From Desulfobulbaceae bacterium (GTDB taxonomy: Bacteria > Desulfobacterota > Desulfobulbia > Desulfobulbales > Desulfocapsaceae), in assembly GCA_004796425.1 (NCBI GenBank), contig QZLB01000302.1, positions 1 to 44,853 of the forward strand: 44,853 bases of DNA. The letters run 5' to 3'. The translations under genes and the position numbers were made by a program. Within the stretch, counting starts at the first letter, position 1; each line of letters begins with the position of its first letter. The notes beneath the pieces are model-generated. The model did not search any database. It was given only the letters and a program-made list of their open reading frames with translations, and had not been told where the DNA came from. Shown here piece after piece: positions 5,906 to 9,318 of the stretch.

Positions 5906-6035
5906 GGTGTAAGAAACCTGGGCATGATTCAACGTAACCGCTACCAGACAGCGAAAAAATGCATATGGTTAAACCAGTTGAGATCCTGTATTCGGCAGTA
6001 TGGAAGCGATATTTACCAGACCAGGGAGTTTTATT

Positions 6036-6575
6036 ATGGCAGATACGGCGCTTAATATTACAAAACTTGGTGACCTGACACTGTACAATGAATCAGGTGC
6101 TTCAATCAGGTTATCGAGCTTATGGGAAAAGACAACGGCAGTGCTGGTCTTTATTCGGCATTTTGGCTGAATCCTTTGCCGTCAGCAGGTTGCTGAATTA
6201 GCAGAATATTCTGATTCTTTTAAGGAAAAAAACAGCGATTTGATCATTGTCGGTTCGGGTGATCATTCACATATCAAAAGTTTTCGAGAAACAACCGGTT
6301 TTAGTGGCAAGATCCTTACCGACCCAAGCCGGAATTCTTTTCAGATGCTTGGTTTGTCGAGCGGGATCGGCGGCCTGTTTGGCCTGACCACCTTGGCAAA
6401 AGGTTTTAGCGCCCTGCGCAAAGGAATAAAACCGGGTTCGATTCAGGGGAGTGCTCTGCAGTTGGGAGGTGCGCTGGTCGTCGATCAACAGGGCAGTATA
6501 CGATACCATCATCAGTCCAAAGAAGCGGGTGATGATCCACCGGTTGAAGAGATGTTGATGGTGGCTGGCGAGTAA
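6036..6575 (+). CDS. Peroxiredoxin-like selenoprotein (AhpC-TSA_2 / SelU-PRXL2 type), UGA read as Sec
   Basis: A 179-residue thioredoxin-fold protein read from ATG 6036 (AGGGAG site 7 bases upstream) through one in-frame TGA at 6168-6170 to a TAA/TAG-type stop ending at 6575. The TGA is codon 45 and sits exactly at the first position of the redox motif: RHFG-U-ILC-RQQVAEL, giving Sec45-x-x-Cys48. PRXL2/AhpC-TSA_2 relatives have FGCxxCRE at this place, and eukaryotic SelU has Sec there. The downstream part matches the family well, with QGSALQLGGALVVD and AGDDPPVEEML. Both halves are in the same frame with no other stop. A bacterial SECIS-like hairpin follows the TGA. Standard gene callers would report only a fragment starting near 6240 or a pseudogene. 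It probably reduces peroxides or disulfides in the cytoplasm. Confidence 0.88.
6175..6205 (+). promoter_or_regulatory. Putative bacterial SECIS element
   Basis: Directly after the recoded TGA (6168-6170), TCAGCA (6182-6187) pairs perfectly with TGCTGA (6191-6196) around a three-base loop, GGT (6188-6190). Below a small internal loop, TTTGC (6175-6179) pairs with GCAGA (6201-6205), including one G-T wobble. The loop begins 17 bases after the UGA and opens with GG. Both features fit the known SelB-recognised bacterial SECIS rules (short apical loop with G, roughly 16-37 bases from UGA). Confidence 0.8.
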
Positions 6576-7130: not shown

Positions 7131-9318
7131 CCACCTGGGTAGTGGAGGAAAAGAACAGCTCGGCGGCAAGGCCGATGGGCTGCAAAAACTTCTTGAAAAT
7201 GGCTACACTATTCCCATAACTGCCTGTATTCCCTGCGAGGTGTACGACGCATTTATTGACACCAATGATCTCAGAGAGTGGATCCAGTTGGAATTGAATA
7301 GAAAAGACCTTGCCCATTCGCGCTGGGAGGAGTTGTGGGATATTTCTCTGCGAATCCGGAACCGTTTTTTACGAGCACGGTTGCCCGAATCTGTTGAATC
7401 TGAGCTGGCAAATTTCATTACCCAACATTTTTTAGGAAAACGTTTGGTTGTCCGTTCCTCATCACCGGAGGAAGATAATCAAAAAAGTTCTTATGCCGGC
7501 CTGCATCGTTCATACCTGAACATCAGCGGGATCGATGAGCTGATCACTCAGATCAAGAAGGTCTGGGCCTCACTTTTCTCTGACAAAGCGCTGCTATACC
7601 GGCAAGAGCTCAACCTGGAGGCGGAACGAAGCGTGATGGGTGTTGTTGTCCAGGAATTGATTGACAGCGAGATATCAGGAATTGTCTTCAGCCGGAATCC
7701 AACAGATGATTCCCAGATGGTCATTGAATCAGTATATGGGCTTAACCAGGGGTTAGTTGACGGGCAGATTGAACCTGATCGCTGGATCATCTCAAAAGAC
7801 AACGGTAGCCTCATTGAGTATCAGGAGGCCGCAGAAAGAACACTTATGGCGGTACCGGTCGACCGGGGTGTTAGCCTGGTTGAGATCGGCGGAAGTGGTG
7901 GCGCGGAACCCCCATTGGCTCAAGAAAGACTTAAGATCATCACGACGGTTGCCCAAGACCTGGAGCGGACTTTTGGTTGTCCCCAGGATATCGAATGGAC
8001 CTGGGCTGATGGTCAGCTCTATCTCCTGCAGAGCAGGCCAATTACCGGACTGCACGGTGGCGATGCAAACGACAAGCGTGCCTGGTACCTCAGTTTGACC
8101 CGGAGTTATGCCAATCTGCAAAAACTCGCCGAACAAATTCAGAACCAGTTTATTCCCGAGATGGAAAAAGAGGCCGACAGACTTGCGACCAGAGTTCTTG
8201 GTGTCCTTTCTGATCAAGCCTTGGCAGATGAACTAAAATATCGTCAGAAACGTTATGAGCACTGGGTGAGCGTTTATTGGGATGAATTTATCCCTTTTGC
8301 CCACGGGATCCGGCTGTTCGGAGAGGTTTACAATGACCGGATGATACCCGATGACCCGTATGAATTTGTAAGTTTGCTCGCTGGTAAAAAACTACTGAGT
8401 ACCAGAAGAAACATGTTGATGGGCAGGCTGGCGGCCAGAGTAGAAGCAAAACCTACCATTCGCGATCAGTTGCTCACCGGTCGGGTCGATCTGGTAAAAG
8501 ATCCGGAATTTCTGCCTCTTTTTGACACGCTCATGAGTGAATTTGGTAATCCATTCAATCTCTATAATATTGGTGGGGATACAGAACAGCAGGCGAACCG
8601 GAAACTATTGGGGATTATATTACAATATGCAGAACTTTCGAATTTTCCCCTGTCTGCACCTCAAGAAAGGAGTGAGGTTCTTGAGCGCGAATTTCTTGGG
8701 CGGATGGCTGACTCTGCCTACCCTTTCTCAGGAGCCGAGATACTTGAGCTTGGCAGAGCAAGTTACCGGCTACGCGATGATGACAATATTGTTCTGGGAA
8801 AAATGGAACAGCAGCTTGAGGTGGCTGCCGCAGAAGGACGGAAACGTTTGCTCCAGAATGGTATTTCCTGGGCTCCACAATTGCAGGTGATGGAAATCAT
8901 TGCAGCGCTTGTGGACAAAGAATCCGCTAAGCGACAACCACTGCAGAAATCTCAAAAGGTTTCCGGGCAACAGTCTCCATTGCGAGCCCGGCAATTGATT
9001 GGCCAACCCGCATCACCCGGAATTGCCAAGGGTTCGGTCCGCTGTATTGATAGCCAGCTGAAGTTTGAGGAGTTCCAGGCGGGTGAAATCCTGGTAGTGG
9101 ATGCAATTGATCCCAATATGACCTTTGTCGCTCCGCTCGCCTCAGCCATCGTTGAGCGGCGGGGAGGGATGTTGATCCATGGGGCAATCATTGCCAGGGA
9201 GTATGGGATACCGTGCGTTACGGGGGTTTATGACCTGACTGAGTTGGTCAAAACAGGCGACATCATCACCGTTGATGGGTATCTCGGTTTGGTGACCATA
9301 CAGCAGTCGAACGGTTGA
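7105..9318 (+). CDS. PEP-synthase/rifampin-phosphotransferase-like dikinase
   Basis: A 737-residue protein in two recognised parts. Residues about 15-315 form the PEP/pyruvate-dikinase ATP-grasp domain: GGKADGLQKLL near 20, VVRSSSPEEDNQKSSYAGLH, and DIEWTWADGQLYLLQSRPI at the end. Residues about 640-737 form the phosphohistidine swivelling domain, with the catalytic His692 in GGMLIHGAIIAREYGIP. The roughly 320 residues between are helical and poorly conserved. The PEP/pyruvate TIM-barrel of true PpsA or PpdK is absent. The protein therefore should transfer a phosphoryl group from ATP, via His, to an unknown acceptor, as rifampin phosphotransferases do. It overlaps the PPOX gene by 26 bases. 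Confidence 0.82.
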   Translation: MKPIFLLDSHLGSGGKEQLGGKADGLQKLLENGYTIPITACIPCEVYDAFIDTNDLREWIQLELNRKDLAHSRWEELWDISLRIRNRFLRARLPESVESELANFITQHFLGKRLVVRSSSPEEDNQKSSYAGLHRSYLNISGIDELITQIKKVWASLFSDKALLYRQELNLEAERSVMGVVVQELIDSEISGIVFSRNPTDDSQMVIESVYGLNQGLVDGQIEPDRWIISKDNGSLIEYQEAAERTLMAVPVDRGVSLVEIGGSGGAEPPLAQERLKIITTVAQDLERTFGCPQDIEWTWADGQLYLLQSRPITGLHGGDANDKRAWYLSLTRSYANLQKLAEQIQNQFIPEMEKEADRLATRVLGVLSDQALADELKYRQKRYEHWVSVYWDEFIPFAHGIRLFGEVYNDRMIPDDPYEFVSLLAGKKLLSTRRNMLMGRLAARVEAKPTIRDQLLTGRVDLVKDPEFLPLFDTLMSEFGNPFNLYNIGGDTEQQANRKLLGIILQYAELSNFPLSAPQERSEVLEREFLGRMADSAYPFSGAEILELGRASYRLRDDDNIVLGKMEQQLEVAAAEGRKRLLQNGISWAPQLQVMEIIAALVDKESAKRQPLQKSQKVSGQQSPLRARQLIGQPASPGIAKGSVRCIDSQLKFEEFQAGEILVVDAIDPNMTFVAPLASAIVERRGGMLIHGAIIAREYGIPCVTGVYDLTELVKTGDIITVDGYLGLVTIQQSNG

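Follow-up and report, generated by a model that had tools for sequence, protein, structure and literature searches.

Does the TGA codon at positions 6168-6170, which interrupts an otherwise open reading frame, end a gene, reveal a damaged one, or encode selenocysteine (Sec)? The frame lies in a window, the whole stretch of 44,853 nucleotides that was analyzed, from the genome of a Desulfobulbaceae bacterium of the sulfate-reducer type. It runs from ATG 6036 to the TAA at 6573-6575 and contains this single in-frame TGA. When the TGA is translated as U, the product is 179 residues in length, contains VFIRHFGUILCRQQVAEL and displays the active-site motif RHFG-U45-x-x-C48-R. Very probably, the product is a small peroxiredoxin-like oxidoreductase with a thioredoxin fold and Sec, of the PRXL2/SelU type, in which UGA 45 is read as Sec by means of a bacterial SECIS element (bSECIS) and Sec45 is catalytic. 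The features of the locus are as follows.

6036 to 6575, plus strand: coding sequence of the selenoprotein, PRXL2/SelU-like and SelL-related, 179 residues with Sec at 45.
6023 to 6028, plus strand: likely ribosome-binding site AGGGAG, a consensus match only, 7 nt before ATG 6036.
6168 to 6170, plus strand: TGA codon read as selenocysteine 45, given the same-column TGA in relatives and selABCD in the genome.
6177 to 6179, plus strand: TGC for Cys48, the second residue of UxxC, replaced by Ala or Ser in some relatives.
6182 to 6196, plus strand: bSECIS-type hairpin UCAGCA-GGU-UGCUGA, as judged from frozen synonymous sites, co-variation and folding.

A second in-frame ATG is present upstream at 6000; the start at 6036 is preferred because of the alignment of homologues and the AGGGAG at 6023-6028. 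The ribosome site that a preliminary description of this DNA had assigned to ATG 6036 is retained as a consensus match. The same description had the frame continuing for 135 codons past the TGA; it does continue, but the sense codons between the TGA and the TAA number 134. Standard gene-calling software would probably cut the gene. Inspection by eye of the TGA-open frames of the window yielded no other convincing TGA-recoded gene.

A point error or a recent nonsense mutation would look much like what is seen here, namely a lone TGA in an otherwise intact frame, and the source assembly is in draft state with 330 contigs (4.4 Mb, 96.7% complete, with the window as contig C144). Relatives argue strongly to the contrary. 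A search of the GTDB family, which contigs common to this search and the named collection suggest to be the Desulfocapsaceae, gave matches in 36 of 93 genomes with an in-frame TGA in every match row, and in all of the extracted loci, read on the correct strand, the TGA column is identical. Contigs were also scanned with peptide patterns that flank the TGA codon on either side and leave out the codon itself. This codon-blind scan recovered 59 relatives from the Thermodesulfobacteriota, Myxococcota, SAR324, Binatota, Acidobacteriota and Chloroflexota, 57 of which carry TGA and two a Cys codon at the residue-45 column, the two kinds of homologue that the preliminary description had proposed to look for. 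A phylum-wide profile search of 21 genomes found the TGA form in 14, and in seven a form with Cys whose motif differs (FLRYxGCPxC or one like it). Among members with the HF motif, 65 of 66 have Sec. The same-column TGA thus recurs in dozens of independent genomes, complete ones among them, and this recurrence is far beyond chance. In addition, third-position changes outnumber those at the first or second position on both sides of the TGA, and the synonymous sites of the hairpin described below are frozen. A sequencing error at the TGA, which had been named among the findings that would overturn the selenoprotein, or a recently inactivated gene is consequently very hard to credit.

The machinery for Sec insertion is encoded in the same genome. 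A tRNA-Sec gene (selC) is present at 73.8 bits with the anticodon UCA, together with SelA, SelB and SelD, the last of which has an in-frame TGA of its own. All four genes had been listed for checking, since their absence would have counted against a selenoprotein. Among the genomes of 30 relatives, SelA was found in 27 and a strong tRNA-Sec in the remaining three. One of these three, the complete genome of Desulfosediminicola flagellatus (L068), has a strong tRNA-Sec and a TGA-containing homologue without a SelA match. Genetic codes in which TGA means Trp are found in other lineages, so that UGA could be read here as Trp, or as Cys, through a changed code or near-cognate suppression; we consider this highly improbable in view of the Sec machinery just described, the use of TGA as an ordinary terminal stop in several of the relatives' frames, and the Cys found at the site in non-Sec relatives.

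Evidence for recoding also lies immediately downstream of the UGA. In bSECIS elements, the loop stands about 16-37 nt from the UGA and has a G within its first two positions. The GGU loop of the hairpin at 6182-6196 begins 17 nt downstream with G first. Across 30 relatives whose proteins have diverged, hardly any change is seen in the codons from which the stem and the loop G are built (Ala GCT in 30 of 30, Gln CAG in 30 of 30 at two places, Arg CGT in 29 of 30), while the wobble position of a Val at the loop edge and those of the neighboring Leu and Cys vary. Where the stem does change, UA pairs are exchanged for GC or CG, AU for GC and CG for GC. Cells are paired at 96.4% compared with 87.1% in shuffles, with 14 changes on both sides of the stem, and slid structures fail the same analysis. 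HLGULPC members, as well as many myxobacterial and other members, have a different hairpin 21-38 nt after the UGA, and co-variation in this sister subfamily is stronger still (91.3% paired, 61 both-side changes). In both analyses, all 500 shuffles scored below the observed value, a result that is taken as support and not as a probability because the counted sequences are related and the shuffle results thereby inflated. Folding energy by itself is only moderately unusual (z of -2.0), and at the TGA site nothing in Rfam passed the threshold, the one hit being a sub-threshold RAGATH-35. A co-varying bSECIS-type hairpin whose loop opens with GG is present just downstream of the codon, and the evidence of this kind for a selenoprotein gene is unusually strong.

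The hairpin also bears on whether the UGA might be a genuine stop, leaving a peptide of 44 residues, with translation of the rest initiated separately. The list of open reading frames does include one of 111 amino acids beginning at TTG 6240. Initiation there, however, would delete the active-site helix, and relatives have a continuous product with CRQQVAEL directly after the UGA, in addition to the SECIS-like hairpin. Rare relatives, moreover, show Cys at the TGA site instead of a stop. Termination at this codon is accordingly very unlikely, and we continue with the reading of UGA 45 as Sec.

The joined product matches the Pfam domain AhpC-TSA_2 (PF13911) at 8.6e-18 and 65.2 bits, compared with a curated cut-off of 27, and also matches PF00578 (AhpC-TSA) and PF08534 (Redoxin). 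The top NCBIfam model is NF040769, SelL-related redox protein, which all 29 aligned members match and which has the same domain and U/C-x-x-C site, but the window protein scores 116.3 bits, just short of the curated 120-bit cut-off. Members tested with HFGUxxC or HFGCxxC fall on both sides of that cut-off (96 to 137, plus 76 for a partial one), and a score of 191 was obtained for one UxxU representative of the HLGULPC subfamily. The AlphaFold2 model (mean pLDDT 90.4) places Sec45 at the N-terminus of a helix spanning residues 46-56, and with high confidence predicts a PRXL2 fold in which C/U-x-x-C opens the active-site helix. By every method, the top solved structure is human prostamide/PGF synthase PRXL2B (Z of 22.9, 1.9 Å over 159 residues), in which the counterparts of Sec45 and Cys48 are Cys44 and Cys47. 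The kinship with PRXL2 and AhpC-TSA_2 and the position of the TGA at the superfamily's first redox Cys, both recognized in the preliminary description, are in agreement with these matches. Together with the same-column TGA in independent genomes and selABCD, the alignment of U45/C48 with the two PRXL2B cysteines sustains its central claim of a selenoprotein with a UxxC site.

How the protein may work can be outlined. The bSECIS hairpin behind the UGA would recruit SelB bearing Sec-tRNA(Sec), and the conserved hairpin and machinery suggest that codon 45 is decoded as Sec in this way. Sec45 would then be the attacking nucleophile, most likely reducing a peroxide or disulfide substrate, after which Cys48 could resolve it by way of a selenenylsulfide. 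Where a relative has no Cys48, resolution may fall to an outside thiol. The peroxide- or disulfide-reducing role is suggested by the fold and the motif.

The second redox position of the motif varies. Among 86 Sec rows, UxxC accounts for 76, UxxA for seven, UxxS for two and UxxU for one. The UxxA or UxxS loci (L048-L053, L101, L103 and L077) have lost the second Cys and retained Sec on more than one branch; the survival of Sec after this loss points to Sec as the probable nucleophile. A tree built for 95 relatives after masking of the Sec column, by a quick method with uneven support and its root not inferred, needs at least three changes between Sec and Cys. The UxxU case (L038, minus strand, match at 1501-1926) comes from a bacterium of the same family and has two in-frame TGAs three codons apart, giving a SelL-like HLGULPU. 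In another locus (L036, minus strand, match at 140-586), a second TGA stands 96 alignment columns past the first, at a position that is Gly in most relatives; an error or decay of the gene may be the cause. The source genome itself holds a second, distant Prx-like gene on contig C74 (L011, about 8521-9006, minus strand). Its in-frame TGA, in FYRGVWUPYC, is followed by a stable hairpin, and this is likely another selenoprotein.

Gene neighborhoods provide little guidance to the substrate. Of 87 homologous loci, few share the neighbors seen in the window, and a conserved operon is thus absent. In 11 of 59 loci the homologue has an SDR gene close by, in some cases with overlap. In six flanks from Desulfobacter-type genomes (L070, L076, L077, L080, L081 and L125) an SRPBCC-SDR fusion gene is found near the selenoprotein gene, and in most of these a cyclopropane-fatty-acid synthase-like gene as well. 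Such neighbors are no more than a weak lead towards lipids, since SDR genes abound in general and are not always on the same side here. A wider proposal would make the HFGUxxC clade an unnamed bacterial branch of SelU/PRXL2 in which Sec is ancestral and nearly obligatory, with UxxA and UxxS members as one-Sec enzymes, acting on lipid peroxides or endoperoxides as PRXL2B does; we regard it as speculative and rather unlikely.

Among known systems, eukaryotic SelU/PRXL2, represented by human PRXL2B (9us9, 9usa), is the top match by both sequence profile and structure, with Cys44-x-x-Cys47 on Sec45-x-x-Cys48; identity in the structure matches is nevertheless about 23-29%, and the window protein is bacterial with its bSECIS inside the coding region. 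By their listed descriptions, two bacterial groups share a related domain and a Sec-x-x-C/S motif, these being the Prx-like thiol:disulfide oxidoreductases (PF00578, UxxC/UxxU) and the AhpC/TSA family protein (PF13911/cd02970, UxxS). The UxxS form reportedly came from an Olavius symbiont. SelL, also likened by description, is Prx-like as is the window protein, and its UxxU is shared by the relative L038; the window protein itself is UxxC and so would form no diselenide, which sets it apart from SelL in the strict sense. SelL with its diselenide has been described from fish, invertebrates and marine bacteria (PMC2397514), and animal SelU comprises three branches, with SelU3 as the prostamide/PGF synthase subfamily (PMC3473315). 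The preliminary description overstated the rarity of a prokaryotic UxxC form: reviews list bacterial Prx-like UxxC/UxxU selenoproteins and the UxxS form of AhpC-TSA_2 (PMC9312934, PMC13188914), and NCBI maintains its model for SelL-related redox proteins. A Prx-like thiol:disulfide oxidoreductase selenoprotein of Desulfotalea psychrophila has likewise been listed (PMC1794560). Taken together, these show that the kind of protein is already known. What is possibly new is the predominance of Sec in the family and its retention despite loss of the second Cys. Sec is usual in the family and Cys exceptional, and its UxxA and UxxS lineages constitute a natural test of the need for the second Cys in catalysis.
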